From: Anas platyrhynchos
Taxonomy: Eukaryota > Chordata > Aves > Anseriformes > Anatidae
NCBI RefSeq assembly: GCF_047663525.1
Contig: NC_092616.1
Coordinates: 6,322,501 to 6,386,500, forward strand
Direction: 5' to 3'
Length of the DNA stretch: 64,000 nucleotides
Part shown: positions 463 to 32,600 of the stretch, piece by piece
Layout of the letters: each line of letters opens with the position of its first letter
Numbering within the stretch: the first letter of the stretch is position 1
Translations under genes and position numbers: made by a program
The notes under the pieces: model-generated
Told to the model about the DNA's origin: nothing
What the model saw: the letters and a program-made list of their open reading frames with translations, nothing else
Databases searched by the model: none

Positions 463-626
463 CCTGGAGGCGGGAGATGAGCCAGGAGAGCTGTTTGCGG
501 GAGATGCCGGTCCAGCTGAGGTCCAGGCTGGCGGGCTGGCGCCGCACGATCCCGCTCAGCATCGACGGCGTCACCGCCGCCCGGCGGCTCAGGTCGATGC
601 GCGTCCACAGGCGGCGGTCGCAGCAC
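463..626 (-). CDS. FBXL19: FBXL19 post-F-box exon, start of LRR region
   Basis: Completes the split Trp codon from the F-box exon and reads [15 protein letters not shown], then [16 protein letters not shown], then [16 protein letters not shown]. It aligns nearly residue for residue with the segment after the F-box of mammalian FBXL19. Acceptor CCCCCAG above 626; donor CAGG|GTGGGC at 463, phase 1. The next exons are outside the window. Confidence 0.92.
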
Positions 627-3600
627 CTGGGGGGGGCCCAAAAATTTAGAGAAAAACCCCAAATTCGGGCAATCTGAGGGTGAGGGAAACAAAAAACGTG
701 AAGAACGGCGAAATTTGGGTGATTCAATGGTTTTTAAGTGTGCCTAAAGCCCCTACAATGCCCCAAAACCCTTCTAAGTGACCCTAAAACCCCCGTAATG
801 ACCCCAAAACCCCTCCCAGTGCCTCCCAGTGCTCCCAGTAACGCTTCCCAGTGCTCCCAGTGCCCCTAAACCTCCTCCATAGCTCCTTTAAGTGTCCCTA
901 AAGCCCCTGTAAGTGCCCCTAAAGCCTCTGTAATGACCCTAAAACGCATCCTAGTGACCCCAAACGCCTCCATAACAACCCCAAATCCCCTCCCAGTGCC
1001 TCCCAGTGCTCCCAGTAACCCCTCCCAGTGCCCCTAAAGTGCCTCTAAAGCATCTTTATACGTCTTTAAACTCCTTCTAAGTGCTCTTAAGGGCTCTGTA
1101 AGTGCCCCTAAATCCCCCGTAGTGACCCCAAAACCCCTCCCAATGCCTCCCAGTGCCTCCCAGTGCTCCCAGTAACCCCTCCCAGTGCTCCCAGTACCCA
1201 TAAACTGTCTCCAAAGCATCTTTATGCCTCTCTAAACTCCTTCTAAGTGCCCTTAATGACCCTGTAATGACCCTAAAATGCGTCCTAATGACCCCAAACG
1301 CCTCCGTAACGACCCCAAAACCCCTCCCAGTGCCTCCCAGTGCTCCCAGTAACACTTCCCAGTGCTCCCAGTGCCCCTAAAGTGCCTCCAAAGCATCTTT
1401 ATACGTCTCTAAACTCCTTCTAAGTGCCTTTAAAGCCCCTGTAAGTGACCCTAATGCCCCTCTAAGTGACCCTAAATCCCCCGTAACGACCCCAAACCCC
1501 CTCCCAACACCTCCCAGTGCCTCCCAGTGCTCCCAGTAACCCCTCCCAGTGCTCCCAGTACCCCTAGATCTCCTCCAAAGCATCTTTAAGCGTCCCTAAA
1601 CCCCCTCTAAATACCCTTAAAGCCCCTCTAAGTGACCCTAAAACGCATCCTAGTGACCCCAAACACCTCCGTAACGACCCCAAAACCCCTCCCAGTGCCT
1701 CCCAGTGCTCCCAGTAACCCCTCCCAGTGCTCCCAGTACCCCTAAAGTGCCTCTAAAGCATCTTTATACGTCTCTAAACTCCTTCTAAGTGCCCTTACAG
1801 CCCCTCTAAGGGCCCCTAAATCCCCCAAAATGACCCTAAAATGCATCCTAGTGACCCCAAATCACTCCCAGTGCCTCCCAGTGCTCCCAGTAACACTTCC
1901 CAGTGCTCCCAGTACCCCTGAAGTGCCTCCAAAGCATCTTTATGCATCTCTAAACCCCTTCTAAGTGCTCTTAAAGCCCCTCTAAGTGCCCCTAAAGCCC
2001 CCGTAACGACCCCAAACCCCTTCCCAGCGCCTCCCAGTGCTCCCAGTAACAGTTCCCAGTTCTCCCAGTGCCCCTAAAGTGCCTCCAAAGCATCTTTATG
2101 TGTCCCTAAAACCCTTCTAAGTGTCCTTAAAACCCTTTTAAATGCCCCTAAAGCCCCCTTAAGAGCTCCTAGAGCCCCCGTAGTGACCCCAAACCCCCTC
2201 CCAGTGCTCCCAGTAAGCCCTCCCAGTGCCTCCCAGTACAAACCAGCGGCTCCAGGTGCGGCAGACCCTCATGCAGACGCAGAGCTCACGGGAGGAGAGG
2301 TGGAGGAAGACGGCGAGCACCCCCAGGGACCCCTCCCAGTGCGCCCAGTCACCCCTCCCAGTGCTCCCAGTGACCCTAAAGCCCCTCGAATCACCCCCAA
2401 GACCCCTCCTAGTGTCTCCCAGTGCCTCCCAGTGCTCCCAGTAACCCCTCCCAGTGCTCCCAGTACCCCTAGATCTCCTCCATAGCTCCTTTAAATGACC
2501 CTAAAGCCCTTCTAAGTGCCTTTAGAGCCCCTCTAAATGCCCCTAAATCCCCCAAAATGACCCTAAAATGCATCCTAGTGACCCCAAATCCCTCCCAGTG
2601 CTCCCAGTAACCCCTCCCAGTGCTCCCAGTGCCCATAAAGTTTCTCCATAGCTCCTTTAAGCATCCCTAAATCCCCTCTAAGTGCCTTTAAAGCCCCTCT
2701 AAGTGCCCCTAAGGCCCCTCTAAGTGACCCTAAATCCCCCGTAACGACCCCAAAACCCCTCCCAGTGCTCCCAGTAAGCCCTCCCAGTACAAACCAGCGG
2801 CTCCAGGTGCGGCAGACCCTCATGCAGACGCAGAGCTCGCGGGAGGAGAGGTGGAGGAAGACGGCGAGCACCCCCAGGGACCCCTCCCAGTGCGCCCAGT
2901 CACCCTTCCCAGTGCTCCCAGTGACCCTAAAGCCCCTCGAATCACCCCCAAGACCCCTCCTAGTGTCTCCCAGTGCCTCCCAGTGCTCCCAGTAACCCCT
3001 CCCAGTGCTCCCAGTACCCCTAAATCTCCTCCATAGCTCCTTTAAGTGTCCCTAAAGCCCCTCTAAGTGCCCTTAGAGCCTCTCTAAATGCCCCTAAATC
3101 CCCCAAAATGACCCCAAAATGCATCCTAGTGACCCCAAATCCCTCCCAGTGCTCCCAGTAACCCCTCCCAGTGCTCCCAGTGCCCATAAAGTTTCTCCAT
3201 AGCTCCTTTAAGCGTCCCTAAATCCCCTCTAAGTGCCCTTAAAGCCCATATAAGTGCCCCTAAGGCCCCACTAAGTGACCCTAAATCCCCCGTAGTGACC
3301 CCAAAACCCCTCCCAGTGCCTCCCAGTGCTCCCAGTAACCCCTCCCAGTGCTCCCAGTACCCCTAAATCTCCTCTATAGCTCCTTTAAGTGTCCCTAAAG
3401 CCCTTCTAAGTGCTCTTAACGCCCCTGTAAGTGCCCTTAAAGCCCCTCTAAGTGACCCTAAATCCCCCGTAGTGACCCCAAAACCCCTCCCAGTGCCTCC
3501 CAGTGCTCCCAGTAACACTTCCCAGTGCTCCCAGTACCCCTAGATCTCCTCCATAGCTCCTTTAAATGACCCTAAAGCCCTTCTAAGTGCCCTTAGAGCC

Positions 3601-6600
3601 CCTCCAAGTGCCCCTAAATCCCCCAAAATGACCCTAAAATGCATCCTAGTGACCCCAAATCACTCCCAGTGCCTCCCAGTGCTCCCAGTAACACTTCCCA
3701 GTGCTCCCAGTACCCATAAACTGTCTCCAAAGCATCTTAATGCATCCCTAAAGCCCCTCTAAGTCCCCTTAAAGCCCCTCTAAGTGACCCTAAAGCCCCC
3801 GTAACGACCCCAAACCCCTTCCCAACGCCTCCCAGCGCCTCCCAGTGCCTCCCAGTGCTCCCAGTAACAGTTCCCAGTTCTCCCAGTGCCCCTAAAGTGC
3901 CTCTAAAGCATCTTAATGCATCTCTAAAGCCCTTCTAAGTGCCCTTAAAGCCCCTTTAAGTGACCCTAAAGCCCCCATAATGACCCCAAACCCCCTCCCA
4001 GTGCTCCCAGTAAGCCCTCCCAGTACAAACCAGCGGCTCCAGGTGCGGCAGACCCTCATGCAGACGCAGAGCTCGCGGGAGGAGAGGTGGAGGAAGACGG
4101 CGAGCACCCCCAGGGACCCCTCCCAGTGCACCCAGTGACCCTAAAGCCCCTCAAATCACCCCCAAGACCCCTCCTAGTGTCTCCCAGTGCCTCCCAGTGC
4201 TCCCAGTAACCCCTCCCAGTGCTCCCAGTACCCCTAAATCTCCTCCAAAGCACCTTTAAGCATCCCTAAAGCCTTTCTAAGTGCCCTTAAATCCCCTCTA
4301 CGTGACCCTAAACCCCCCGTAGTGACCCCAGTCCCCCTCCCAGCGCCTCCCAGTGCTCCCAGTAACCCCTCCCAGTGCCTCCCAGTACAAACCAGCGGCT
4401 CCAGGTGCGGCAGACCCTCATGCAGACGCAGAGCTCGCGGGAGGAGAGGTGGAGGAAGACGGCGAGCCAGACGTCGCGCTGCATGACGTGGGCGGCCCCG
4501 CTGTCCAGGGGCAGGCGGTCGGGGTCGGGGGTGGCGGGGGGGGGGCGCACCACGTGGCGCTCCCAAACCCGTCGGTTTTGGGGGGGGGGCACCCCAAAAA
4601 CCCCCGGGGGGGGGGGGGGCGCTGACGGGGTTTGGGGGGTAAAGGAGGGGGGGGGAGAGGAGAGGAGGGGGCGTTCGGGGGGGTTTCGTCGTCGGAAGAG
4701 GAGGAAGAGGAGGAGGAGGAGGAGGAGGAAGGGGGGCTGAAGGGGGGGAGGGGGGGGGACGGGGGGGTGGCCCCCCCCGAATCGGAGCCCGAACTGGAGC
4801 TGGAGCTGGAGCTGGGGGGGGCGCCGGGGGGGGGGGCGCGCTCCAGGAGGCGGCACATCTGGCGGAAGCGCTCCAGGCGCTCGCGTTGGCGGCCGGCCTG
4901 GGAAAAACAAAATTTGGGGGGGGGGGGGAAATTTGGGGGGTTAGGGGGGATTTGGGGGGGTTGGGGGGGTTGGGGGGGGGTTATGGGGGACCTATGGGGT
5001 CAAGGGGGGAAATTTGGGGGGTAAAAGGGGGAATTGGGGGGGTTATGGGGTCAGGAAGGGAAATTTGGGGGGGTTAGGGGGGATTTGGGGGGGTTATGGG
5101 GGGGAATTGTGGGGGTTATGGGGTCAAGATGGGAAATTTGGGGAGGTTATAGGGGAAATTGGGGGGGTTATGGGGGGAATTGGGGGATTATGGGATCAAG
5201 GGGGGAAATTTGGGGGGGTTAGGGGGTTTGGGGGGAAATTGGGGGGATTTGGGGGGCTTATGGGGAGAATTGGGGGGAATTGGGGGGTTATGGGGGGAAT
5301 TTGGGGGAATTGGGGGGGTTATGGGGGAATTTGGGGGTTGTGGGGGCTGGGGGAATAATTTGGGGGGGTTATGGGGTCAAGGGGGGAAATTTGGGGGGGG
5401 GTTAGGGAGGATTTGGGGGGGTTATGGGGTCAGGGGGGTGATGGGGAGGGGGTTTGGGACCCCCCCGGGGGATTTGGGGACCCCCCGGGGCCACTGGGGG
5501 GGTTTTGGGGCTCACCTCAGCATCGGGGGGGCCGGAGGGGGGGGGAGCCCCCCCAGGGGGCTGCAGCTCGGGGGGGGCCCCGGGACCCCAGGTCACCTCC
5601 GCCTGGGGGGGGGGGATAAGGGGTGATGGGACCCCCCCAAAAACCCCCAAATCACCCCAAAACCACCCCAAAATTACTTAAAACTGCCCCAAAAGCATCC
5701 CAAAATCTTTCGGAACTCTTCAACCCCCCCAAAATGCCCCAAAATCCCCCAAAACCGCCCCCAAAACCCCCGAAACAGCCCCAAAACCCCCCAAAATCAC
5801 CCCCAAAACCCCCAAAACAACCCCAAAACCCCCCAAAACCGCCCCCAAACTCCCAAAACAGCCCCAAAACCCCCAAAACCACCCCCAAAACAGCCCCAAA
5901 ACCCCCCCAAAAATCTAAAAATCAACCCAAAAAAACATAAAGCCACCCCAAAATGCTCTAGAATCACCCCAAAACCCCCCCAAATTACCCCAAAACCATC
6001 CCAAATCCCTCCCAGGACCCCCCAAAACCCCAAATCCTGCGCCGAAAACCCCCAAATTCCCCCAAACCACCCCAAATCCCTCCTAAGATCCCCAAAATCC
6101 CCCAAATCCCACCCAAAATCCCCCCGAAATCCCTCCCAGGGCCCCCAAAAACCCCAAATCCCCCCCCAGACCACCCCAAATTCCTCTTAAGATCCCCAAA
6201 ATCCCCCAAATCCCCCTAAAATCCCCTCCAAACCCCAAATCCCTCCCAGGACCCCCAAATCCCCCCCAACAATCCCCCCCCGGGGTCCCAACCTTTTTGG
6301 GTTTTCTTCTCGGACTCCTTTTAGCTTGCCAAATTAAAAGCAGAAATCATGGGATTTCACCCCAAAACACAGACACCCCAAATATAACCCCAAAGACCCC
6401 AAAATTGGAATTTCCCCCTAAAAATTGATATTTTTGCCCAAAATTGGGGTTTTCCTCCCCAATGGGGCTTCCTCCCTAAAAAATAGTGAGTTTTCCCCCC
6501 AAAAAGATGTTTTTCCCCAAAAAATTGGGTTCCCCCACCCTAAAATGGGGTTTTCACCCCCAAAAGTTACAGGTTTCTACCCCAAACTGGGAATTCTTCC

Positions 6601-9600
6601 TCAAAAATGGCATTTTTTTCCCAAAATGGCTATTTTACCCCCCAAAATGGGGTTCAGACTCTAAAAAATCAGTTTCACTCCAAAATATGGGGCTAAAACA
6701 CCAAAAAATAGGTATTTTTTCCCCCAAAAAAATAGTTTTTCTCCCCCAAAATAGCTTTTTTCCCCCCCAAAAATGGGCTTAACCCCCAAATAGGGGTGTT
6801 TTTCCCCAAAAAAAAGGTTTCTTTACCCCAAATTGGGGTTCCCCCCCAAAAAAATGAGTTCCCCCCCCCCAAAAAAAAGGGATTTCCCCCCCTAAAAATA
6901 AGAATTTCCCCAAAAAAGGGTGATTTTACCCCAAAATTCATGCCACCCCCAAAAAAGGGGATTTCCCCCCGCAAAAATAAAGGGATTTTCCCCAAAAAAT
7001 CAGAATTGCCCCCCCATAAAAAGATCCCCCCCCCAAAGGATCTCCCCCCCCAAAAACATCAGAATTTCCCCCAAAAAACTCAAAATTTCCCCCCAAAACC
7101 TCAGAATTTCCCCCAAAAAAGGGCAATTTCCCCCCAAAAAAGGCCATTTTTCCCCTAAAATTAACCCCCCCCCCTCCCAAAATTTGGGGTGTCCCCCCCC
7201 CTCACCTTCTTGCGGGGGGGGGCCGTCGGGCTCCGCGTCCGGGCGGGGTTTTGGGGGGGTTTCGTCGGGGGCCCCCCCCTTGCGTTTTTGGGGGGGGGGC
7301 AGGGCCGGGGGGGCTCCTCCAGCCCCCAGCGCCCCCCCCCTCGTCGCCGTCCTCCCCCCGCCTCTTCGCCCCCTCCCCTCCCCCACCTCCTAAATTTTTT
7401 TGGGGGAAAGGGGGGGGTCAGGGGGGGACCCCCAAAATGGGGGGGCCCATCCATGACCCCCCCCAAAAAAAAAAGTGAAGAAATACAAAAAAAGTGGGAA
7501 ATTAACCCAAATTTTAACCCGCCCCTGAAATTTGAGCCCCCCCCCGAAAGTTTAGGAAAGCCCCAAAACCACCCCAAAAAATTAAAATCCCCCCCAAAAT
7601 TAATTCTCCACCAAATTTTTTAAAATTCTACCCCAAATTTTTAGAATTCTCCCCAAATTCTTAAAATTCTACCCCAAATTCTTAAAATTCCACCCCCAAA
7701 TTCTTAAAATTCCACCCCAAATTCTTAAAATTCCACCCCAAATTCTTAAAATTTAATATTTTATTTAATTTTTATTTATTATTTTTCCCCAAAAGACCCC
7801 CCCAAAAATTTTGGAGAGTTCCAAAACCCTAAAAACCTTCCCCCAAAATTTCAAAGACCCCCCAAAACCCACAGAACACCCCAAAAATTGTAAATACCCC
7901 CCCAAAAATTAAAAGAACCCCCCCAAAAATATCAGAGCCCCCCCAAATCCCCACAACCCTCCCCAAAACTGAGCCCCCCCCAAATTTAGGGGATCCCCCT
8001 AAAATTTTAGCCCCCACCCCCGTCTCCCCCAAACCATTTCCCCCCAAAATAAAGTCAAAACCCCAAATTTTAGGGAAAACCCCCCAAAATTTTATTGGGG
8101 GTTCCCAAATTTTAGGGGGGGCCCCAAATTATCACGCCCCCCCAAAAAAAGCCAAATCCCCCCCCAAGCCCCCAAATCCCTCAGAATCGCCCCCAAAACC
8201 CTCAGAATTTCCCCCAAAACCTTGTGCCCCCCCAAAAAAAAATATTTAGTGCCCCCCCAAATTTTTTGGGACCCCCCCAAAATTTTGGGGCCCCCCCACC
8301 TTGGCGCTGCGCCCCTCCTCTTGCTTTGGGGCACTCCCAGCAGTTGGGGATTTCGGGGTTGATCACCGCCTCCGCGCGCCCCATCTGCAGGTTTTGGGGT
8401 GAAAAACGACAAATTTGGGGGCGGCCCCCACTCGGGGAGCCCCCCCCCAAAAAAATTTTGTCCCCCCCCCCTTTTTGGGGCGCCGTGCACCCTGTAACTT
8501 TGGGGTGGCTGCGTTGGGAAATGGGTGGGAAATTTGGGGGGGCAGCCCCATATTTAGGGGATCCCGAACATTTAGGGGACCCCTGAATTTTAGGGGAATG
8601 GGGAAATCTGCGTTTTGGGGGAAAAACATGCTTTTTGGGGAAAAATCCCACGTTTTGGGCAAAAAAGACGACTTTTAGGGATTGTTTAGGGTGGGTGCTG
8701 CCCCATAGGGCCCCGCCCCACCCCACAGGGGGCTGCCCCATAGAAAATGGGGTCCCCCCCATATTTTTGGAGGCCACCCCATGTAGGGGAACCCCAACTT
8801 TTTGGGGTAAAACCCTTAATTTTAGGGAAAATCCCCAATTTGCCCAAAAATGGGGAGTTTGGGCCACTTTGTGCCCCACTGTGGGCTCCCCACCCCATAA
8901 GGGGCTGCCCCATAGAAAACGGGGTCCCCCCATATTTTTGGGGGTCACCCCATGTAGGGAAACACCAACTTTTGGGGTAAAACCCTTAATTTTAGGGAAA
9001 ATCCCCAATTTGCCCAAAAACGGGGAGTTTGAGTTCCCCCTACGCTCTACGGGGCTGCCCTATAAAAAATGGGGGCTCCCCTATATTAGGGGGGGTTCCC
9101 TATATTTAGGGGGGGTTCCCCATATTTGGGGGGCACCCTTAATTTTGGGAGCCCCCCCATGGGAAAAAAAAGACACTTTTTGGAGGAAAAACACACTTTT
9201 TTGGGTAAAAAAACAACTTTTTTGGGGTACACCTTGCCGTTACGCGGCCCCATAGCGCCCTATAGGAACTGGGGGGGGTCCCCAAATTTTGGGGTGGGGG
9301 TTTTTAGGTCCGGGGGGGGGGGTCCTGAAGCAAAAAACGAATAAAATTAAGGCGGAAAAGGGGATAAAGGAAGGTTAAAAATGGGCAGAAACGCGTTTTG
9401 ACGGCGTTCCGGCCCCGTAAACGGGCGGCCCTATTATTGTAGGGTTTGGCCCCATTTTGGGGTGCCCCCCCCCGGATTTTGGGGGTACCTGGAGGCAGCG
9501 GGGGTGGACGATCTCGCTGCAGATGCTGCACTCCATCAGCGCCAGCTCCAGCCTCTCCTCCTCGCCCTCGGCCGCGGCCTCGCGCCCGGCCTCGCCGCAC

Positions 9601-12600
9601 GCCCGGCACACGGCCGTGTGGGGCAGCACCGGCTGCGGGGGGGGGGTTTGGGGGGGAGGTGAGACCCTAAAATCCCAAAATGGCCCCGAAGAAGCCAACG
9701 GGATCCCAAAGAAGCCAACGCGACCCCAAAGAACCCAACGGGGATCGCAAAATAAGCCCCGAGTTGTCGCGATCCTAAAAAAAACAGCGCGATCCCAAAA
9801 AATGCCCACAATTGTCCCGAACCCAAAGACCCCAAAAAGGTCCCAAAGACCCAACGGGACCCCAAAGAACCCAACGGGATCCCAAAGAACCCAACGGGAT
9901 CGCAAAATAAGCCCCGAGTTGTCGCGATCCTAAAAAAAACAGCGCGACCCCAAAAAATGCCCACAGTTGTCCCAATCCTAAAAACCCCAAAAAGGCCCCA
10001 AAGACCCCAAAACAGCCCCAAAGACCCAACGGGATCCCAAAGACCCCAATACGGCCCCAAAGAACCCAACGGGATCGCAAAATAAGCCCCAAGTTGTCGC
10101 GATCCTAAAAAAAACAACGCGACCCCAAAAAATGCCCACAGTTGTCCCAATCCTAAAAACCCCAAAAAGGTCCCAAAGACCCCAAAACAGCCCCAAAGAC
10201 CCAACGGGACCCCAAAGACCCAATGCGACCCAAACGAACCCAACGGGATCGCAAAATAAGCCCCGAGATGTCCCGATCCTAAAAAAAACAGCGCGACCCT
10301 AAAAATGCCCACAGTTGTCCCGATCCCAAAGACCCCAAAAAGGTCCCAAAGACCCAAAAACAGCCCCAAAGACACAATGGGACCCCAAAGAACCCAACGG
10401 GACCCCAAAGAACCTAATGCGACCCGAAAGAACCCAACGGGATCTCAAAATAAGCCCCAAGTTGTCCCGATCCCAAAAAAACAACACGACTCCAAAAAAT
10501 GCCCACAATTGTCCCGATCTCAAAGACCCCAAAAAGGCCCCAAAGACCCCAAAGAACCCAACGGGACCCCAAAGAACCCAACGGGATCCCAAAACCGTCC
10601 CAAAGACCCAACGCAACCCCAAAACCATCCCAAAAACCCAACGCAACCCCAAAACCATCCCAAAAACCCAACGCAACCCCAAAACCGGCCCAAAACTGGA
10701 CCCAAAGACACAATGCAAACCCAAAAAAGTCCCAAAGACCCAACATGACCCCAAAACCGTCCCAAAGACCCAACGCAACCCCAAAACCATCCCAAAGACC
10801 CAACACAACCCCAAAGACCCAAACCCAACCCCAAAACCGCCCAAAGACCCAACGCAACCGCAAAAACCAACCCAAAACTGGACCCAAAGACCCAACGCAA
10901 CCCCAAAACCACCCCCAAAACTGGACCCAAAGACCCCAACACAACCCGAAGACCCAACGCAACCCCAAAACCATCCCAAAGACCCAACCCAACCCCAAAA
11001 CCATCCTAAAGACCCAACCCAACCCCAAAAAACATCCCAAAACTAGACCCAAAGACCCAACGCAACCCCAAAACCACCCAAAGACCCAACGCAACCCCAA
11101 AACTGTCCCAAAGACCCAACGCAACCCCAAAACCACCCCAAAGACCCAACGCAATCCCAAAACCACTCCAAAACCACCCCAAAGAACCAACGTAACCCCA
11201 AAACTGTCCCAAAGACCCAACGCAACTCTACAGACCCAACGCAACCCCAAAACCACCCCAAAACTGGACCCAAAGACGCCGACGCAACCCCAAAACCATC
11301 CCAAAGACCCAACGCAACCCCAAATACCATCCCAAAACTGGACCCAAAGACCCAAGGCGACCCCAAAACCACCCCAAAGACCCAACACAACCCCCAAAAC
11401 CACCCCAAAGACCCAACGCAACCCCAAAACCATCCCAAATCCCAATGCAACCCTACAAACCCAATGCAACCCCAAAAAGCAACCCAAAACCACCCCAAAG
11501 ACCCAACACAATCCCAAAAAACACCCCAAAACTGGACCCAAAGACACAATGCAAACCCAAAAAAGTCCCAAAGACCCAACATGACCCCAAAACCCACCCA
11601 AAGACCCAACGCAACCCCAAAAACCACCCCAAAGACCCAACACAACCCCAAAAACCACCCCAAAGACCCAACACAACCCCAAAACCATCCCAAAACCACC
11701 CCAGAGACCCAACGCAACCCTACAGACCCAACGCAACCCCAAAGACCAACCCAAAACTGGACCCAAAGACCCAACTCAACCCCAAAACCGTCCCAAAGAC
11801 CCAACGCAACCCCAAAAGTGTCCCAAAGACCCAAGGCAACCCCAAAACCACCCCAAAGACCCAACGCAATCCCAAAACCACTCCAAAACCACCCCAAAGA
11901 ACCAACGTAACCCCAAAACTGTCCCAAAGACCCAACGCAACTCTACAGACCCAACGCAACCCCAAAGACCACCCCAAAACTGGACCCAAAGACCCAACGC
12001 GACCCCAAAAACCACCCCCAAAACTGGACCCAAAGACCCCGACGCAACCCCAAAGACCCAACACAACCCCAAAACTGGACCCAAAGACCCAACGCAACCG
12101 CAAAAATCAACCCAAAACCACCCAAAGACCCAATGCAACCCCAAAAACCACCCCAAAACTGGACCCAAAGACCCCAATACCGTCCCAAAGACCCAACACA
12201 ACCCCAAAACCCTCCCAAAGACCCAATGCAACCCCAAAGACCAACCCAAAACCATCCCAAAGACCCAACGCAACCCCGAAGACCAACTCAAAACTGTCCC
12301 AAAGACCCAAGTCGACCCCAAAAACCCTCCCAAAGACCCAACGCAACCCTAAAAACCACCCCAAAACTGGACCCAAAGACCCCAACACAACCCTGAAGAC
12401 CCAACGCAACCCCAAAACCATCCCAAAGACCCAACCCAACCCCAAAACCATCCTAAAGACCCAACCCAACCCCAAAAAACATCCCAAAACTGGACCCAAA
12501 GACCCAACGCAACCCCAAAACCACCCCAAAGACCCAACGCAACCCCAAAACCATCCCAAAACTGGACCCAAAGACCCAACGCAACCCCAAAACCATCCCA

Positions 12601-13828
12601 AAGACCCAACACAACCCAAAGACCCAAACCCAACCCCGAAACCGACCCAAAGACCCAACGCAACCGCAAAAAACAACCCAAAACTGGACCCAAAGACCCA
12701 ACGCAACCTTGAAGACCAACTCAAAACTGTCCCAAAGACCCAAGTCGACCCCAAAACCACCCCAAAGACCCAACGCAACCCCAAAACCATCCCAAAGACC
12801 CAACGCAACCCCAAAAAACATCCCAAAACTGGACCCAAAGACCCAACTTGACCCCAAAACCATCCCAAAGACCCAACACAACCCCAAAACCCTCCCAAAG
12901 ACCCAACGCAACCCCAAAAACCAGCCCAAAACCACCCCAGAGACCCAACGCAACCCTACAGACCCAACGCAACCGCAAAACCAACCCCAAACCCACCCCA
13001 AAATGCCCTGAAATGCCCCGAAACGCCCCAAAATTCCCCAAAAAGCCCCGAAATCGCACCGCGGTGCACTGGCGCAGCAGGCAGGACTGCTTCATGCGCC
13101 CGGGGCCGCCGAATTTCTTCATGTCGCGGCAGAAGTGGCAGGCGCCGCACTCGGAGCGCAGGCAGGCCCGGCACCTCCGGCAACCCCAAAAACCACCCCA
13201 AAACTGGACCCAAAGACCCAATGCGACCCCAAAACCACCCCAAAGACCCAAGGCAACCCCAAAACCCTCCCAAAGACCCAACGCAACCCCAAAACTGTCC
13301 CAAAGACACAACGCAACTCTACAGACCCAACGCAACCACAAAAAACAACCCAAAACCACTCCAAAGACCCAACGCAACCCCAAAAACCACCCCAAAACTG
13401 GACCCAAAGACCCAATGCGACCCCAAAACCCTCCCAAAGACCCAACACAACCCCAAAAAACACCCCAAAACTGGACCCAAAGACCCCAACGCAACCCCGA
13501 AGACCCCAACGCAACCCCAAAGACCCAACGCAACCGCAAAAACCAACCCAAAACTGGACCCGAAGACCCAACGCAACCCCTAAGACCCCAAACCCGCCCC
13601 GAAACGCCCCAAAACGCCCCAAAACGCCCCAAAAAAGCCCCGAAATCGCACCGCGGTGCACTGGCGCAGCAGGCAGGACTGCTTCATGCGCCCGGGGCCG
13701 CCGAATTTCTTCATGTCGCGGCAGAAGTGGCAGGCGCCGCACTCGGAGCGCAGGCAGGCCCGGCACCTCCGGCACCGCGTCCGGCGCCGCCGAGCTCCCG
13801 CCCCCGCCCCGCGGCTCCGCTGCGGCAT
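463..13828 (-). CDS. FBXL19: FBXL19, F-box and leucine-rich repeat protein 19 (3' part off the left edge)
   Basis: Known role of the family: SCF ubiquitin-ligase substrate receptor whose CXXC zinc finger binds unmethylated CpG DNA in the nucleus. Coding exons read on the minus strand in order: 13652-13849 (start codon 13828-13826), 9489-9632, 8300-8384, 7206-7389, 5516-5602, 4393-4897 and 463-626. They give a CXXC finger, a PHD finger, a basic/proline linker, a serine-rich segment after a conserved MCRLLERA motif, the F-box, and the first post-F-box segment ([12 protein letters not shown], then [13 protein letters not shown]). Most leucine-rich repeats lie beyond position 1. Splice sites are GT-AG throughout. 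Exon lengths of 7206-7389 and 4393-4897 break the frame by one base each, inside long G/C runs. KDM2A/KDM2B share the CXXC-PHD-F-box layout but carry a JmjC domain, and the residues seen fit FBXL19 better. Confidence 0.93.
2244..2318 (-). repeat. Truncated copy 1 of FBXL19 F-box exon 3' edge
   Basis: Near-identical to 4393-4467: encodes [19 protein letters not shown] and the following TWSRW fragment on the minus strand and keeps the donor context TG|GTTTGTAC. One difference seen is CTCACG for CTCGCG. Lies in the intron downstream of the real exon. Confidence 0.93.
2795..2869 (-). repeat. Truncated copy 2 of FBXL19 F-box exon 3' edge
   Basis: The same 75-base exon piece as 4393-4467, with the donor dinucleotide and flanking CCCAGTAC retained. 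It ends at the same internal exon breakpoint (GGCGAGC) as the other copies. Confidence 0.93.
4031..4105 (-). repeat. Truncated copy 3 of FBXL19 F-box exon 3' edge
   Basis: The same 75-base piece and same breakpoint as the two copies further left, about 290 bases downstream (in the transcript) of the real exon end. Donor context is intact. Confidence 0.93.
4393..4897 (-). CDS. FBXL19: FBXL19 Ser-rich and F-box exon with apparent frameshift
   Basis: The first part (phase 0) reads [20 protein letters not shown], then proline, two serine runs and DDE. The last part reads [20 protein letters not shown] followed by the F-box [18 protein letters not shown] and [10 protein letters not shown], in a different frame. 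The frame change falls between about 4575 and 4690, where runs of 9-14 G occur; no intron signals are convincing there. Exon length 505 is one base short of the 506 that phases 0 in and 2 out require. The donor TG|GTTTGT is non-ideal, and its sequence is shared with three downstream partial copies of this exon edge. Confidence 0.85.
4898..5515. repeat. FBXL19 intron: G-rich GGGGTTATGGGG array
   Basis: Units such as GGTTATGGGGTCAAGGGG and GGAAATTTGGGGGG repeat with long G runs on the plus strand. The transcript strand is therefore C-rich. Confidence 0.85.
5516..5602 (-). CDS. FBXL19: FBXL19 proline-rich linker exon
   Basis: Eighty-seven bases, 29 codons, phase 0 on both sides, reading [18 protein letters not shown] and ending GPPDAE. 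Acceptor CCCCCCAG and donor GAG|GTGAGC are good. Assigned by position, phase compatibility with the next exon and a rough likeness to the proline-rich region before the MCQLLER motif. Sequence conservation is weak. Confidence 0.65.
5603..7205. repeat. FBXL19 intron: CCCCAAAA and mixed CCCC/GGGG arrays
   Basis: 5640-6290 is a C-rich array (CCCCAAAACCCCCAAAAC type). 6300-7180 alternates C-run/A-run with T-run/G-run words such as CCCCAAAATGGGG, giving many small inverted repeats. No exon was recognised. Confidence 0.8.
7206..7389 (-). CDS. FBXL19: FBXL19 linker exon with apparent frameshift
   Basis: From the acceptor TTTAG the phase-1 frame reads [14 protein letters not shown] then GGW, resembling the acidic/basic linker of FBXL19. 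The end of the exon makes sense only in another frame, which reads TAPPRKK just before the donor AAG|GTGAGG and matches the conserved PRKKV. The exon is 184 bases, whereas 185 or 182 would keep frame. Runs of 9-10 G or C lie between the two readable parts, so a homopolymer length error is the simplest explanation. A real indel or a different acceptor is possible. Confidence 0.7.
7390..8299. repeat. FBXL19 intron: mixed repeats with an AT-rich island
   Basis: 7600-7750 is a roughly 25-bp tandem repeat containing TTCTTAAAATTC and CCACCCCAAA, about seven units. It runs into an AT-rich patch at 7745-7790 that stands out from the surroundings. The rest is C-rich CCCCCCAAAAAT words. Confidence 0.75.
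8300..8384 (-). CDS. FBXL19: FBXL19 PHD-finger exon, second part
   Basis: Begins [20 protein letters not shown], which supplies the last zinc ligands (CWEC) of the PHD finger, as in mammalian FBXL19/KDM2 proteins. The exon enters in phase 0 after CCTGCAG and leaves in phase 1 at CAAG|GTGGGG. Confidence 0.92.
8385..9488. repeat. FBXL19 intron: CCCCATAG / GGGGAAAA repeat block
   Basis: Two near copies of a roughly 180-base segment start near 8700 and 8885, with CCCCATAGAAAA, CCCCATGTAGGG and AATTTTAGGGAAAATCCCC words. 9300-9480 is less repetitive. No exon seen. Confidence 0.75.
9489..9632 (-). CDS. FBXL19: FBXL19 PHD-finger exon, first part
   Basis: Forty-eight codons start [16 protein letters not shown] and end [16 protein letters not shown]. 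They supply the first Cys pairs and the His-Cys ligands of the PHD finger. Both junctions are phase 0: acceptor CCCCGCAG, donor CAG|GTACCC. Confidence 0.93.
9633..13651. repeat. FBXL19 intron: 4-kb CCCAAAGACCCAACG array
   Basis: About 25-30-bp units built from CCCAAAGACCCAACGCAACC and CCCAAAACCACC words. The left 900 bases use a longer unit (about 190 bp) with CCCGAGTTGTC and AAAAAACAGCGCGACC. The transcript strand is G-rich (GGGTTGCGTTGGG). The array contains the CXXC exon fragment at 13060-13182. Long open frames here reflect the repeat. Confidence 0.92.
13060..13182 (-). repeat. Truncated copy of the FBXL19 CXXC exon 3' part
   Basis: A 123-base near-exact copy of 13652-13774 with at least 15 bases of the flanking intron (CGAAATCGCAC) and the donor GCG|GTGCGA. 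It encodes a CXXC finger fragment starting [18 protein letters not shown], lacks the exon's acceptor and 5' part, and then passes abruptly into the CCCAAAA repeat. Confidence 0.94.
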
Positions 13829-13849
13829 CGGCACCGCGCCTACGCACGC
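13652..13849 (-). CDS. FBXL19: FBXL19 CXXC zinc-finger exon with start codon
   Basis: The frame reads [11 protein letters not shown], a basic stretch, then the CXXC finger beginning [19 protein letters not shown] and continuing through [13 protein letters not shown] to RQC. This retains the CGxC type cysteine spacing. The chosen start ATG (13828-13826) matches the internal methionine region of mammalian FBXL19 ([14 protein letters not shown]). The acceptor is a C-run followed by AG just above 13849. The donor is GCG|GTGCGA at 13652, phase 0. The 3' 123 bases of this exon are duplicated about 590 bases downstream in the transcript (13060-13182). Confidence 0.92.
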
Positions 13850-15464: not shown

Positions 15465-15540
15465 CTGCAGCCTCTCCGCGGGGGCGGGGGCGGCGCCATC
15501 CCGGGGCGGGGGGGGGGAGCTCGGGGGGGGCAAAAATGGG
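15465..15540 (-). other. FBXL19: Candidate FBXL19 5' untranslated exon (end of exon best supported)
   Basis: A GC-rich non-repetitive block ends in a good donor CTGCAG|GTGAGG at 15465. It holds an ATG (15499-15497), but joining it to the CXXC exon reads into a TAG after a few codons. If used, it would be 5' UTR with a short upstream frame. Upper boundary is unknown. Confidence 0.35.
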
Positions 15541-18295: not shown

Positions 18296-18299
18296 CCCC

Positions 18300-18845
18300 C
18301 CCATTTATCCCTTCAGGGCCGGAGCCCTGTGGGCGGAGCCACCCGGAAGCCACGCCCCTTCCGGGAGGGACGAAAGGGCGTGGCTTCGGGCAGCCCCGCC
18401 CCCCTCGGTGCCGCCAGCCAATCAGCTGCGGGTGTTGGGGTGGGGTGGGAGGGGCCTTGAGGCGTTGCTAGGCAACAACGAGCAGGAAGGGGCGGGGGGG
18501 GAGCACGGTCGCCATGGCAACGGTTGCCTGGCAACCGCGCGGGCCAATAAAAGCTGTGACAGGACCTCCTGGCTCCGCCTCCTTCCTTCTGATTGGCTGC
18601 CTGCTCCCGCCGCGCTGATTGGCCGCGCATCGCCTAGCCCCACCCCCAACCCCTCCCATTGGCTGTAGAGGGGCGGGCCGGCGCTCTGCGCTTCCTGATT
18701 GGCTCCCCGCTCCGCCCATCACCTCCTCTCGACCAATAGGAGGCCGTTTCTTGTTTTCTCCCGCTTCCGCTTCCTCCCTGGGCCAGCCCCGCCTCCTCCG
18801 GCGGCTCCGAGCGGCGGCGGGGCGGGGAGGGGGTCGCTCGTCGCC
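18300..18845 (+). promoter_or_regulatory. TBC1D10B: TBC1D10B promoter region with CCAAT boxes and RFX X-boxes
   Basis: Contains at least six CCAAT/ATTGG boxes (near 18418, 18543, 18591, 18618, 18657, 18694, 18733) and three palindromic RFX X-box-like elements: GTTGCTAGGCAAC at 18464, GTCGCCATGGCAAC at 18508 and GTTGCCTGGCAAC at 18523. The TBC1D10B start codon follows at 18846 after a GC-rich leader with GGGGCGGGG boxes. The transcription start was not determined. Confidence 0.7.
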
Positions 18846-23600: not shown

Positions 23601-26600
23601 GCCCCCTGGGGCTGACCACGCCCCTTTTGACTTGGCCACGCCCCCTTGATGCTGGCCACGCCCACCTGACCCCATCCATTAACCCCTTCCCCACCTGACC
23701 CCATTTGACCCCGGGGCTGACCCCGCCCCTTTTGACTTGGCCACGCCCCCCGGGGCTGACCACGCCCCCTTTTGGCCCCGCCCCCTTTTGGCCCCGCCCC
23801 CCTCTGGCCCCGCCCCCAGGCAGCAGGACCTGTACCATTAACCCCTTCCCCACCTGACCCCATTTGACCCCGCCCCTTTTGACTTGACCACGCCCCCTGG
23901 GGCTGACCACGCCCACTTGACCACACCCCCCGGGGCTGACCACGCCCCCTTGATGCTGGCCACGCCCACCTGACCCCATCCATTAACCCCTTCCCCACCT
24001 GCCCCCATTTGACCCTGGGGCTGACCCCGCCCCTTTTTGCCTGGCCACGCCCCCCGGGGCTGACCACACCCACTTGACCACGCCCCCTGGAGCTGACCAC
24101 GCCCCCTAGTGCTGGCCACGCCCACCCATACCCATTTGACCTCACCCCCTCCCATCCCATTCCCATTGACCCGGGGCTGACCCCGCCCCTTCTGTCTGAC
24201 CACGCCCCCCGGGGCTGGCCACACCCCCTTGATGCTGGCCACGCCCACCTGGCCCCATCCATTAACCCCTTCCCCACCTGACCCCATTTGACCCCGCCCC
24301 TTTTGACTTGACCCCGCCCCTTTTGACTTGACTCCACCCCTTTTGACTTGGCCACGCCCCCTGGGTCTGACCACGCCCCCTAGAGCTGGCCACGCCCCCT
24401 TGATACTGGCCACGCCCACCTGACCCCACCCAATCCATTAACCCCTTCCCCACCTGACCCCATTTGACCCCTCCCCTTTTGACTTGACCCCGCCCCTTTT
24501 GACTTGACCACGCCCCCCGGGTCTGACCACGCCCCCTTTTGGCCCCGCCCCCTGTTGGCCCCGCCCCCTTTTGGCCCCGCCCCCAGGCAGCAGGACCTGT
24601 ACCGCATCCTGAAGGCCTACACCGTGTACCGGCCGCAGGAGGGCTACTGCCAGGCACAGGCGCCCGTCGCCGCCGTCCTGCTCATGCACATGCCCGCTGA
24701 GGTGACTTTTGGGGACATTTCGGGGACATTTGGGGGCATTTGGGGGCATTTGGGAGGTTGGGGGCGTTGGGGACATTTGGGGGCATTTGGGGATATTGGG
24801 GTAGTTGGAGGTATTGGGGACATTTGGGGTGTATTGAGGATATTTGGGGATATTTGGAGCATTTGGGGACATTTTGGGGACGGTGGGGGCATTTGGGGGA
24901 CATTTGGGGACTTTTTGGGGTGTTGGGGACATTGGGAAGTTGGGGGTGTTGGGGACATTTGGGGTATATTGAGGATATTTGGGGATATTTGGGGACATTT
25001 GGGGACTTTTGGGGGGCATTGGGGAGATAGGGGGTGTTGGGGACATTTGGGACATTTGGGGACATTTGGGGATGTTGGGGGTGTTGGGGGTGTTGGGGAC
25101 ATTTGGGGGCATTGGGGACATTTGGGGTATATTGAGGATATTGGGGGCATTTGGGGGCATTTGGGGACATTTGGGGACATTTTGGGGGTGTTGGGGACAT
25201 TTGGGGACATCAGGGAGATTGGGGACATTGGGGACATTTGGGGACATTTGGGGACTTTTTGGGGGTGTTGGGGACATTTGGGGACATTCGGGGATATCGG
25301 AGGTGTTGGGAGCATTTGGGGATATCGGGGAGATTGGGGGCATTTGGGGGCATTTGGGGACATTTGGGGACTTTTTGGGGACGTTGGGGACATTGGGAAG
25401 TTGGGGGTGTTGGGGACATTTGGGGTATATTGAGGATATTTGGGGATATTTGGGGGCATTTGGGGACATTTTGGGGACATTTGGGGGTGTTGGGGTCAAT
25501 GGGGGGCGTTTGGGGGCATTTGGGGACATTGGGGTCATTTGGGGCCATTTGGGGACATCGGGGAGATTGGGGACATTTTGGGGGCATTTGGGGACATTTT
25601 GGGGGTGTTGGAGGTGTTGGGGACGTTTGGGGACATTTGGGGACATTTGGGGACATTGGGGGCGTTAGGGGTGTTGGGGACATTGGGGACATCAGGGAGA
25701 TTGGGGACATTGGGGACATTTGGGGACATTTGGGGACTTTTGGGGGGCATTGGGGAGATAGGGGGCGTTGGGGATATTTGGGACATTTGGGGGCATTTGG
25801 GGACATTTTGGGGGTGTTGGGGATGTTGGGGGCATTTGGGGATATCGGGGAGATTGGGGGCGTTGGGGACATTTGGGGACTTTTTGGGGGTGTTGGGGGC
25901 GTTGGGGACATTGTGGGTTTTGGGGACATTTGGGGGGATTGCGGTAGTTGGGGACATTTGGGGACATTGGGGACATTTGGGGGTGTTGGGGGTATTGGGG
26001 ACATTGGGGACATTGGGGGTGTTGGGGACATTGGGGGGACATTTGGGGATATTTGGGACATTTGGGGACATTGGGGACATTTTGGGGGTGTTGGGGTCAT
26101 TGGGGACATTTGGGGACATTTGGGGATATTGGGGGCGTTGGGGACATTGGGGGTGTTGGGGACATTGGGGAGATTGGGAACATTTAGGGATATTTGGGGA
26201 CATTTGGGGGTGTTGGGGCATTGGGAACATTTTGGGGGGCATTAGGGACATTTGGGGTATATTGGGGACATTTGGGGATATTTGGGGACATTTGGGGGCT
26301 TTGGGGCCATGGGGATGGGGATATGGGCTCATGGGGACATTTGGGGCCATTGGGAATATTTGGGAACATTGGGGACATTTGGGGACATTTGGGGCCATTT
26401 GGGGACATTTGGGGACGTTTGGGGGTATTGGGGCCATTTGGGGCCATTTTGGGGCATATTGGGGCCGTTTTGGGGTCCCTGGTGACCCCGTTTCCCCCGC
26501 AGCAAGCCTTCTGGTGCCTGGTGCAGATCTGCGACAAATACCTGCCGGGGTACTACAGCGCCGGCCTGGTGAGCGGGGCCATATAGGGCCATACGGGGCC

Positions 26601-29600
26601 ATATAGGGCCATATAGGGCCATATAGGGCCTTATGGGGCCATATAGGGCCATATAGGGCCATACGGGGTCATATGGGGTCATACGGGGCCCTACAGGGCC
26701 TTATGGGGCCTTATGGGGCCTTATGGGGTCAGATGGGGCCTTATGGGGCCATATGGGGTCATATGAAGCAATACGGGGCCATATAGGGCCTTATGGGGCC
26801 ATACGGGGCCTTATGGGGTCGGATGGAGCCTTATGGGATCATATGGGGCCATACAGGGCCATACGGGGCCCTATGGGGTCGGATGGGGCCTTATGGGATC
26901 ATATGGGGCCCTATGGAGCCATATGGGGCCATACAAAGCCTTATGGGGCCGTATGGGGCCTTATGGAATCATATGGGGCCTTATGAGGCCAGACGGGGCC
27001 ATATGGGGTCATACAGGGTCATATAGGACCATATGGGGCCTTATGGGGTCCTACAGGGCCACACGGGGTCCTATGGGGTCAGATGGGGCCTGATGGGGCC
27101 ATACGGGGCCCTATGGGGTCATACGAGGCAATATGGGGCCCTATGGGGTTGGATGGGGCCCTACAGGGCCATACAGGGCCCTATGGGGTCAGATGCAGTT
27201 GGATGGGGCCATATGCAGTCTTACGGGGCCCTATAGGGCCTTGTAGCGCCTTATAGGGCATTATAGGGCCTTGTAGGGCTTGTAGGGCCTTATAGGGCAT
27301 TATAGGGCCTTATAAGACCTTGTAGAGCTTTATAGTGCCTTATAGGGCCTTATAGGACCTTATAGGGCCTTATATGGATTTGTAGGGCTTTATAGGGCCT
27401 TATAGTGCCTTATAGGGCCTTATAGGGCCTTATATGGATTTGTAGGGCCTTATAGGGCCTTATAGGACCTTGTAGGGCCTTATAGTGCTTTATAGGGCTT
27501 CATAGGGCCTTATATGGATTTGTAGGGCCTTGTAGTGCCTTATAGGGCCTTGTAGGGCCATGTAGGGCCTTATAGGGCATTATAGTGCCTTATATGGATT
27601 TGTAGGGCTTTATAGGGCCTTATAGTGCCTTATATGGATTTGTAGGGCCTTATAGGGCATTATAGGGCCTTATAGGGCCTTATATGGATTTGTAGGGCCT
27701 TATAGGGCCTTATAGGGCCTTATAGAGCCTTGTAGGGTCTTATAGGGCCATGTAGGGCCTTATAGGGCCTTATAGGGCCTTATATGGATTTGTAGGGCCT
27801 TATAGTGCCTTATAGGGCCTTATTGGGCTTTATAGGGCCTTATAGTGCATTATAGGGTAATATAGGGGTTTATAGTGCCTTATAGGGGCTTATAGTGCCT
27901 TATAGGGCCTTATAGGGCCGTATAGGGCCCTGACCCTCTCCCCCCCACCCTATAGGAGGCGGTGCAGCTGGACGGGGAAGTTTTCGGGGCCCTTTTGCGC
28001 CGCGCCGCCCCCGCCGCCCACCGGCACCTGCGGCGATTTCGGGTGGAGCCGGTGCTCTACCTGACCGAGTGGTTCATGTGCATCTTCGCCCGCTCCCTGC
28101 CCTGGGCCGCCGTGCTGCGGGTTTGGGACATGTTCTTCTGCGAAGGTAAAAACCCAAAATCCCAGGAATTCGCCCCAAAAATACAGCGGGGTCTGCCAAG
28201 GAATGGGGGGCGCTGGGAGCCGTCCGAAAATGTTGAGTGGGTGGAATGGGGAGAGATTAAAGGGGTTGGGGGGTTTGGGGGTTTGGGACATGTTCTTCTG
28301 CGAAGGTAAAAAAAGCCCCAAAATTGCAGGAATTCGCCCCAAAAATACAGCGGGGTCTGCCAAGGAAAGGGGGGCAATGGGTGGAATGGGGAGACCTGAA
28401 GGGGGTTTGGGGGTTTGGGATCTGTTCTTCTGCGAAGGTAAAACCCCAAAAGCCCCAAAAAAAGCCCCAAAATCCCAGGAATTGGCCCCAAAGAAAAAAG
28501 CCCCAAAATCCCCAGAATTGGCCCCAAAAATACAGCCGGGTCTGCCAAGGAATGGGGGGCGTTGGGATCCGTCCGAAAATGTTGCATGGGTGGAATGGGG
28601 GGACCTGAAGGGGGTTGAGGGGTTTGGGACATGTTCTTCTGCGAAGATAAAAACCCCAAAATCGCAGGAATTCGCCCCAAAAATCCCAGGAATTCGCCCC
28701 AAAAATCCCAGGAATTGGCCCCAAAAATACAGCGGGGTCTGCCAAGGAAAAGGGGGCATTGGGATCCGTCCGAAAATGTTGCATGGGTGGAATGGGGGGA
28801 CCTGAAGGGGGTTGGGGGGTTTGGGGGTTTGGGACATGTTCTTCTGCAAAGGTAAAAACCCAAAATCGCAGGAATTGGCCCCAAAAATACAGCGGGGTCT
28901 ACCAAGGAAAGGGGGGCAATGGGTGGAATGGGGAGACCTGAAGGGGGTTTGGGGGTTTGGGATCTGTTCTTCTGCGAAGGTAAAACCCCAAAAGCCCCAA
29001 AAAAAGCCCCAAAATCCCAGGAATTGGCCCCAAAGAAAAAAGCCCCAAAATCCCAGGAATTGGCCCCAAAAATCCAGCCGGGTTCGCCAAGGAAAGGGGG
29101 GCGCTGGGAGCCGTCCGAAAATGTTGCGTGGGTGGAATGGGGAGAGATTAAGGGGGTTTGGGGGTTTTTGGGGGTGTTGGGGGGGGCTATGGGGTTCTAG
29201 GTGGGGTCTCTGTAGGGTTCTAGGTGGGTTCTCCATAGGGTTCCTGGTGGGTTCCCATTGGGTTCTTTATAGGGTTTGGGGTTTTTGGGGTTCATTTGGG
29301 GTCCCTATGGGGTTCCCGTTGGGTTCCCGTTGGGTTCTTCATTGGGTTTTTGGTTGGGGGGTCATTTGGGGGTCCCTATGGGGTTCTAGGTGGGTTCTCC
29401 ATGGGGTTTCTGGTGGGTTCCCATTAAGTCGTTTATAGGGTTTTGGGTCTGGGGGTCCATTTGGGATTCCCGTTGGGTTCCCGTTGAGTTCCATTTGGGT
29501 TCCCCATGGGTTTTGGGGTTTAGGGGGTCAATGGGGGTCCCCATGGGGTTTTTGGTGGGTTCTTCATGGGGTTCCCATTGGGTTCCTTTTGGGTTCCTGT

Positions 29601-32600
29601 TGGGTTTTCTATAGGTTCTTGAGCGTAGACCCGAAATCTTGGTTCCCGTTGGGTTCCCATTGAGTTCCCCATGGGTTTTGGGGTCTGGGTGGTCAATGGG
29701 GGTCCCCATGGGGTTTTTGGTGGGTTCTCCATGGGGTTCCCATTGGGTTCCTTTTGGGTTTCCATTGGGTTTTTAATAGGTTCTTGAGCGTAGACCACAA
29801 ATCTTGGTTCCCTTTGGGTTCCCTTTGGGTTCCCCATGGGTTTTGGGGTCTGGGTGGTCAACGGGGACCCCCATGGGGTTCTTGGTGGTTTCTCCATGGG
29901 GTTCCTGTTGGGTTCTTTTTGGGTTTCCATTGGGTTTTTAATAGGTTCTTGAGTGTAGCGCACGAATCTTGGTTCCCGTTGAGTTCCCATTGGGTTTCCC
30001 ATGGGTTTTGGGGTCTGTGTGGCCAATGGGGTCCCCATGGGGTTCTTGGTGGGTTCTCCATGGGGTTCCCGTTGGGTTCCTGTTGGGTTTTCTATAGGTT
30101 CTTGAGTGTAGGGCACAAATCTTGGTTCCCGTTGGGTTCCCATTGGGTTCCCCATGGGTTTTGGGGTCTGGGTGGCCTATGGGGGTCTCCATGGGGTTCT
30201 TGGTGGGTTCTCCATGGGGTTCCTGGTGGGTTCCCATTAAATCATTTATAGGGTTTTGGGTTTGGGGGTCCATTTGGGATTCCCGTTGGGTTCCCGTTGA
30301 GTTCCATTTGGGTTCCCCATAGGTTTTGAGGTCCGGGTGGTCAATGGGGTCCCCATGGGGTTCTTGGTGGGTTCTCCATGGGGTTCCCGTTGGGTTCCTG
30401 TTGGGTTCCCATTGGGTTTCCCATAAATTGTTGAGTGTAGGCAAGGAATCTTGGTTCCCATTGGGTTCCTATTGGGTTCCCCATGGGTTTTGGGGTCCGG
30501 GTGGTCAATGGGGGTCCCCATGGGGTTTTTGGTGGGTTCTCCATGGGGTTCCCGTTGGGTTCCTGTTGGGTTTTCTATAGGTTCTTGAGTGTAGGGCACA
30601 AATCTTGGTTCCCATTGGGTTCCCGTTGGGTTCCCCATGGGTTTTGGGGTCTGTGTGGCCAATGGGGGTCCCCATGGGGTTTTTGGTGGGTTCTTCATGG
30701 GGTTCCCATTGGGTTCCTTTTGGGTTCCTGTTGGGTTTTCTATAGGTTCTTGAGTGTAGGGCACGAATCTTGGTTCCCATTGGGTTCCCTTTGGGTTCCC
30801 CATGGGTTTTGGGGTCTGGGTGGCCAATGGGGTCCCCATGGGGTTCTTGGTGGGTTCTCCATGGGGTTCCCATTGGGTTCTTTTTGGGTTTCCATTGGGT
30901 TTTCAATAGGTTCTTGAGTGTAGGGCACAAATCTTGGTTCCCATTGGGTTCCCGTTGAGTTCCTATTGGGTTCCCGTTGGGTTCCCCATGGGTTTTGGGG
31001 TCTGGGTGGCCAATGGGGGGGTCAGTGGGGTTCTTGGGGTTCTTGGTGGGTTCTCCATGGGGTTTCCGTTGGGTTCCCGTTGGGATCCAGTTGGGTTTTC
31101 TATAGGTTCTTGAGTGTAGACCCCAAATCTTGGTTCCCATTGGGTTCCCGTTGAGTTCCTATTGGGTTCCCATTGGGTTCCTGTTGGGTTTTGGGGTCTG
31201 GGTGGCCAATGGGGTCCCCATGGGGTTTTTGGTGGGTTCTCCATGGGGTTCCCATTGGGTTCCCGTTGGGTTCCTGTTGGGTTCCTGTTGGGTTTCCCAT
31301 AAATTGTTGAGCTTAGGTCCCAAATCTTGGTTCCTGTCGGGTTCCCCTTGGGTTTTGGGGTCCGGGCTCCCCCGTTTTTAGGATCCAAGCCTTTTAGGGT
31401 CCCCCTGACCCCCTCCCCGTCCCCACCTAGGGGTGAAGATCATGTTCCGCGTGGGGCTGGTGCTGCTGCGGCAGGCGCTGGGTTTTCCATAGGTTCTTGA
31501 GTGTAGGGCATGAATTTGGGTTCCCGTTGGGTTCCCATTGGGATCCCCATGGGTTTTGGGGTCCGGGTGGTCAATGGGAGTCTCCATGGGGTTTTTGGTG
31601 GGTTCTGCTTGGGGTTCCCGTTGGGTTCCTTTTGGGTTTCCATTGGGTTTTTAATAGGTTCTTGAGCGTAGACCCCAAATCTTGGTTCCCGTTGGGTTCC
31701 CATTGGGTTCCCCATGGGTTTTGGGGTCCGGGTGTCCAATGGGGGGGGTCAATGGGGTTCTTGGGGTTCTTGGTGGGTTCTCCATGGGGTTCCTGTTGGG
31801 TTCCCATTGGGTTCCAGTTGGGTTTTCTATAGGTTCTTGAGTGTAGACCCCAAATCTTGGTTCCCATTGGGTTCCCGTTGAGTTCCTATTGGGTTTCCAT
31901 TGGGTTCCTGTTGGGTTTTGGGGTTCGGGTGGCCAATGGGGGTCTCCATGGGGTTCTTGGTGGGTTCTCCATGGGGTTCCCATTGGGTTCCCGTTGGGTT
32001 TTTAATAGGTTCTTGAGTGTAGGGCACAAACAATGGTTCCTGTTGGGTTCCCATTGGGTTCCCCATGGGTTTTGGGGTCCGGGCTCCCCCGTTTTTCGGA
32101 TCCAAGCCTTTTAGGGTCCCCCTGACCCCGTCCCCGTCCCCACCTAGGGGTGAAGATCATGTTCCGCGTGGGGCTGGTGCTGCTGCGGCAGGCGCTGGGC
32201 AGCCCCGAGAAGCTGCGGAGCTGCCAGGGGATGTACGAGACCATGGAGCGCCTGCGCAGCGCCCCCAGCGCCGCCCTGCACGAGGACCTCCTGGTGCAGC
32301 AGGTGGGGTCAAGGGGTCATGGGGTCAAGGGTTATGGGGTCACGGGGTCATGGGGTCATGGGGTCATGGGGTCATGGGTCAAGGGGCTTGGGGTCAAGGG
32401 GTATGGGGTTATAGGGTTATGGGGTTTGGGGTCAAGGGGGTTGGGGTTTGGGGTCAAGGGGGTTGGGGTTTGGGGTCAAGGGTTATGGGGTTTGGGGTCA
32501 AGGGGGTTGGGGTCAAAGGGGTTGGGGTTATGGGGTTTGGGGTCAAGGGTTATGGGGTTTGGGGTTTGGTGTTATGGGTCATGGGGTCAAGGGTTTGGGG

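Follow-up and report, generated by a model that had tools for sequence, protein, structure and literature searches.

In the duck (Anas platyrhynchos), introns of FBXL19 and TBC1D10B contain copies of the edges of adjoining exons, splice sites included. The window analyzed here is a stretch of 64,000 nucleotides (nt) of contig NC_092616.1 (C30:6322501-6386500), in one assembly of 1.26 Gb in 42 contigs. The alpha-A globin of this genome comes closest, engineered double chains aside, to PDB chain 3eok_A, followed by 1faw_A and 1a4f_A, which are duck and goose chains. An earlier note on this DNA had described truncated exon-edge copies in the adjacent intron at five boundaries of the two genes, and all five are confirmed, with 11 copies in total. 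It is very likely that these copies represent exon stuttering on an avian dot-like microchromosome, in which a tandem duplication reaches into an exon edge and is then amplified with the intron array.

According to this explanation, a local tandem duplication with one end inside an exon would copy the exon edge, the splice site and the adjoining intron. The second copy would necessarily be intronic, and the original exon would stay whole. The duplicated piece would then join the intron array, and slippage, unequal exchange or template switching would multiply the two together. Exon edges would generally be no special starting point for this process; array growth would rather fade out there against sequence protected by selection.

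Exon-Edge Copies at Five Boundaries of FBXL19 and TBC1D10B

FBXL19 was located on the minus strand of the window, and TBC1D10B, CD2BP2 and THOC6 on the plus strand, by tblastn with human protein queries. Exon boundaries were read from the sequence after the protein match, and the start of TBC1D10B exon 3 was reset from this reading. The copies and their breakpoints are seen directly (Table 1). Their bit scores range from 58 to 283 and can be compared with a cut-off of 42.1, which was borrowed from Hron et al. (2026), where it is the maximum of a shuffled control in chicken. Judged against this borrowed cut-off, the copies at the five boundaries are not due to chance.

The splice dinucleotide is intact in 10 of the 11 copies. 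The statement that the splice site is always copied is therefore correct for these ten and fails for the exon 7 copy at 28620, where GT is changed to AT. All three F-box copies have one exon-side breakpoint in common, as do all five exon 7 copies, which are spaced 128-209 bp apart. Because each of these two groups shares a single breakpoint, five founding events, not eleven, have to be assumed. The F-box exon (window 4393-4897) has conserved parts in different frames, which indicates either a hidden short intron or an assembly indel.

Table 1. Source exons and their edge copies in FBXL19 and TBC1D10B; positions are those of the window.
Feature	Position	Strand	Exon part	Basis
FBXL19 CXXC exon, source of copied donor edge	13652..13849	-	last 123 nt	tblastn, boundaries from sequence
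CXXC donor-edge copy with donor and adjoining intron	13015..13182	-	123/123 identical	
FBXL19 F-box exon, matched stretch, 5' end uncertain; source of donor edge	4393..4562	-	last 75 nt	
F-box donor-edge copy 1	4016..4105	-	75/75	
F-box donor-edge copy 2	2780..2869	-	75/75	
F-box donor-edge copy 3	2197..2318	-	74/75	
FBXL19 exon ending the F-box intron (edge copies looked for, none found)	463..626	-		
TBC1D10B exon 5, source of copied acceptor edge	24587..24701	+	first 17 nt	
Exon 5 acceptor-edge copy	23770..23836	+	17/17	
TBC1D10B exon 7, source of copied donor edge	27956..28145	+	last 27 nt	
Exon 7 donor-edge copies (n = 5)	28279..28359, 28411..28451, 28620..28684, 28825..28900, 28953..28993	+	27 nt each, 0-2 mismatches	
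TBC1D10B exon 8, source of copied acceptor edge	32148..32302	+	first 52 nt	
Exon 8 acceptor-edge copy	31381..31482	+	52/52 identical	

Wider Survey of Exon-Intron Boundaries

A survey of 264 kb (20 stretches plus the window) placed these boundaries in a larger set. Of 263 segments given a codon score (training set, 943 codons), the best 130 were considered, and 74 exons were picked from these by hand, weak or unrecognised segments being left out. Boundaries with low splice scores were also left out, which gave 64 donors and 59 acceptors for scoring. To be counted, a copy had to span the boundary and include 12 or more exon nt (12 and 6 nt on the two sides), on the same strand and within 15 kb either side. 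Edge copies were found at 12 of 122 scored boundaries, 8/64 donors and 4/58 acceptors, and the difference between donors and acceptors is not significant (p = 0.37). The acceptor count is given after one hand correction, from 5/59 to 4/58. The supposed TUFM exon at C30:6407724 turned out to be copied from the genuine exon immediately upstream, and its acceptor was removed by hand. Its donor was retained and assigned to the genuine exon, so that this row is still part of the 48 copies and of the mismatch totals given below and is absent from the gradient test.

The affected boundaries are spread over four genes, FBXL19, TBC1D10B, TUFM and ATP2A1. The names of TUFM, ATP2A1 and the paralogues come from reading translations, and those of FBXL19, TBC1D10B, CD2BP2 and THOC6 from searches. 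Beyond the window, edge copies were found for the FBXL19 exon at C30:6312726-6312932 (donor with 3 copies, acceptor with 13), for the donor of the FBXL19 exon at C30:6317444-6317593 (11 copies), for two TUFM donors, and for one donor and one acceptor of ATP2A1. One of the TUFM exons from which a donor edge was copied (C30:~6407080-6407238) has an apparent frame discontinuity relative to human TUFM, perhaps an assembly error.

The longest exon part measured 22-123 nt at 11 of the 12 boundaries. The remaining one, the TBC1D10B exon 5 acceptor, has a copy of 17 nt, which would fail the 20-bp exon minimum of Hron et al. (2026). GT or AG is kept in 46 of the 48 copies, the crossing of the border being part of the counting rule. 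Every counted copy is on the intron side of its source exon and comes before the next recognised exon. The earlier claim that copies are always on this side thus holds for the counted copies, but it needs no special mechanism, because the second copy in a tandem duplication of exon edge plus intron is bound to be intronic, and the rule is built into any boundary-spanning duplication.

Exon Edges Compared with Exon and Intron Interiors

A comparison of exon edges with random segments, which the earlier note had set as a test, gave a divided answer. Edges were copied more often than exon midpoints (12/122 vs. 1/69, p = 0.034) and far less often than random intron points, of which 167/200 had copies, or 74/200 when 95% identity over 40 nt was required (Fisher, 1.9e-41 and 3.1e-8, respectively; neighboring points are not independent). 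The query lengths in these comparisons differed, being up to 90+60 nt for boundaries, 35+35 for midpoints and 60+60 for intron points. The introns are largely made of local tandem repeats, as these 167 of 200 points with a local copy indicate; Tandem Repeats Finder rows are listed for positions 1-33000 of the window.

At donors, copies were present for 3/60 test points placed 60 nt within the exon and for 7/63 placed on the edge itself; in the intron the frequency climbed to 32/63 (60 nt) and 51/58 (300 nt). The corresponding values at acceptors were 0/55, 4/57, 33/57 and 48/57. The rule applied here was stricter (12 nt either side of the test point), and the points near the edge include some exon sequence. 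The test points covered the range between 60 nt within the exon and 400 nt within the intron, and on both sides the frequency rose without a peak at the border. The simplest reading of this gradient is that growing arrays reach into exons, where selection stops them. The earlier note had proposed that array expansion starts at or runs through the boundary. It does run through boundaries, since the copies carry the splice site and adjoin the source exon. That it starts there is unsupported in general, as there is no peak.

This richness in local copies was compared with other chromosomes. C30, a candidate dot chromosome, measures 6.8 Mb in the one assembly used, and the stretch studied is GC-rich and repeat-filled. 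Seven 10-kb samples from C30 had copies at 95-160 of 200 points, vs. 0/200 and 3/200 in 10-kb controls on contigs C1 and C15. A TBC1D10A-like paralogue on C16 (3.2-kb locus, plus strand) had no off-diagonal self-match of 42.1 bits. For FBXL19-like genes, a protein search gave, among the matches listed, one CXXC and one F-box match each on C16 and C5, and two and four, respectively, on C30; this comparison consists of protein-match counts over exons alone, with the best candidates scored. Edge copies were not seen for paralogue exons in the stretches examined on C16 and C5.

Origin and Divergence of the Copies

A founding duplication followed by amplification is supported by the breakpoints. 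In four of the seven multi-copy families, all copies have one exon-side breakpoint in common (3/3, 3/3, 5/5, and 11/11). Several observations nevertheless weigh against stuttering of this simple form, and they are considered here together with the alternatives to which they lend some support.

Firstly, exon-side ends vary in the other three families (35-39, 33-37, and 15-22 exon nt, a spread of 4-7 nt), which calls for repeated events there or for slippage at a later stage. Secondly, differences from the source amount to 40/2087 positions in the exon part of the copies and to 147/2022 in the intron part, gaps included. This contrast was taken from aligned copies, as substitution rates on fixed 30-nt intron stretches were inflated by array shifts. 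Simple neutral ageing alone would not give it; a constrained source exon combined with slippage in G-runs may account for it. There is little or no such contrast in the TUFM rows and in the FBXL19 donor family at 6312726, and in the TUFM family at 6413075 substitutions amount to 14/165 in the exon part and 14/148 in the intron part. One possibility is that the exon acts as a continuing template, so that exon-derived array segments are copied afresh from the intact exon or repaired to match it, which would fit an exon part that is about 2% different and an intron part that is about 7% different. We regard this as a rather small chance. If true, some introns, such as the tiled FBXL19 intron described below, would be fed by and built from their own exons and would not derive from one old duplication.

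Thirdly, junction homology at exon-side breakpoints was not significantly above random (mean 1.17 vs. 0.78, p = 0.13, 12 events). The test is a weak one, as the flank's other occurrence itself derives from a copy in at least two of the events; at the exon 7 junction, a longer shared GGGTTTGGG run was read by eye and was counted as 2. Slippage, unequal exchange and template switching all remain candidates, because junction homology is not above random and there is no significant donor excess. We infer both the duplication step and its molecular route from these patterns.

Fourthly, copies of both its edges tile one FBXL19 intron from either end; this intron is just outside the window, flanked by the exons at C30:6317444-6317593 and C30:6312726-6312932. 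Its 11 donor-edge copies extend from 6317321 to 6315574 and its 13 acceptor-edge copies from 6315526 to 6313271, and the two sets meet within about 50 bp. This intron looks like growth from the boundaries and is the best case for expansion seeded at exon boundaries, with an R-loop or a replication block, for instance, as the trigger at the splice site or edge, and with introns growing outward from exons. The higher frequency of copies at edges than at exon midpoints also speaks for seeding of this kind. However, copying climbs into the intron without a peak at the border, copies are far commoner at random intron points than at edges, and donors are not in significant excess. As an account of the boundaries as a whole, seeding is thus unlikely.

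Finally, an assembly artefact has to be weighed, in which collapsed or misjoined reads in GC-rich repeats would have produced false copies. The region is indeed repetitive and GC-rich, and the frame discontinuities in the FBXL19 F-box exon and, by our own reading, in a TUFM exon may be assembly errors. However, across four genes the 12 boundaries have copy families that carry variants of their own, and chicken PHF8 introns with the same pattern were checked by raw nanopore reads, according to the main text of Hron et al. (2026). An artefactual origin is therefore very improbable.

With exon stuttering as the preferred explanation, there is also the question of whether the copies are used. Selection could be maintaining them as functional alternative exons or splice sites, as would be compatible with the high retention of GT or AG and with exon-derived parts that are overall nearer to the source than intron-derived parts. 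However, the copies are truncated, and the TUFM family at 6413075 is similar in exon and intron substitution. In addition, an acceptor-like site within 300 nt upstream was found for 0/21 copies in five of the seven donor families examined and for 7/10 in the other two. This limits them as proto-exons. Of the alternatives, maintenance by selection appears to be the least probable, and we infer that the copies are neutral.

Relation to Exon Stuttering and Mirages

The earlier note did not know this way of intron growth to be described. Two published systems already describe it, so that the duck copies add one more example to a kind already known. On chicken dot chromosomes, partial exon copies in neighboring introns were termed exon stuttering, and the main text of that report gives 115 genes and 236 affected introns, 190 of them on dot chromosomes, with 1-44 copies (Hron et al., 2026; PMC12954441). 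More than 90% of the sources lay at most one base from the border of the exon, and repeat expansions in other birds are mentioned. In amphioxus globin genes, boundary-spanning duplications were named mirages, and earlier reports (Adh3) are cited in the same text (Ebner et al., 2010; PMC3087553).

As in chicken, the duck copies are partial, include the adjoining donor or acceptor, form tandem clusters and occur on a repeat-rich tiny chromosome, and in both birds no such copies were seen in a paralogue on another chromosome. The present case differs in the species and in the genes, FBXL19, TBC1D10B, TUFM and ATP2A1. FBXL19 and TBC1D10B are absent from the main text of the chicken report, to which the comparison refers. 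Variation in intron length between individuals was measured in chickens, whereas one assembly is considered here (PMC12954441).

The likeness to mirages lies in minisatellite-like tandem duplications over the exon-intron boundary, which affect 5' as well as 3' ends and repeat the splice signals. Length variation is reported for mirages as well (PMC3087553), and normal splicing despite the repeats and somatic instability also count among their features. Whereas that text describes single genes, in the duck a single stretch of a repeat-filled chromosome has several affected genes. The word mirage does not appear in the main text of Hron et al. (2026). Cryptic or alternative splicing is raised in the text of both papers, and for mirages cryptic splicing was proposed together with a model of intron gain (PMC3087553). 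The AG/GT proto-splice model of intron gain by Rogers, as cited there, likewise involves duplication that multiplies splice signals inside a gene. Unlike that model, which makes a new intron, the duck copies lie in existing introns and leave the exon unchanged.

Further Arrays in the Window

Two other stretches of the window are repetitive in a way that touches its genes. The first (43796-45475) is a GA-rich array with periods of 138, 141, 51, 26, 28 and 3. It shares an open frame with the conserved CD2BP2 residues that flank it and may be a coding array of about 400 codons, with the caveat that a T-poor strand stays open in most frames. The second, between TBC1D10B and CD2BP2 (~35050-37000), has reverse-strand open frames that give a repeated AVNQ/LSIK-like peptide, which points to a further tandem array there.

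Implications

What is new in this analysis is the boundary gradient, the comparison of edges with introns, and the link between the chicken and amphioxus literatures. It extends a chicken phenomenon of 2026 to the duck and to named genes, and ties it to the older amphioxus mirages. It also provides a simple null, in which exon edges are unique tags at places where intron arrays ran into unique sequence, and edge copies mostly measure array turnover. The copied donors and acceptors are candidate decoy sites by sequence. If they were used, they would matter for the evolution of splicing.

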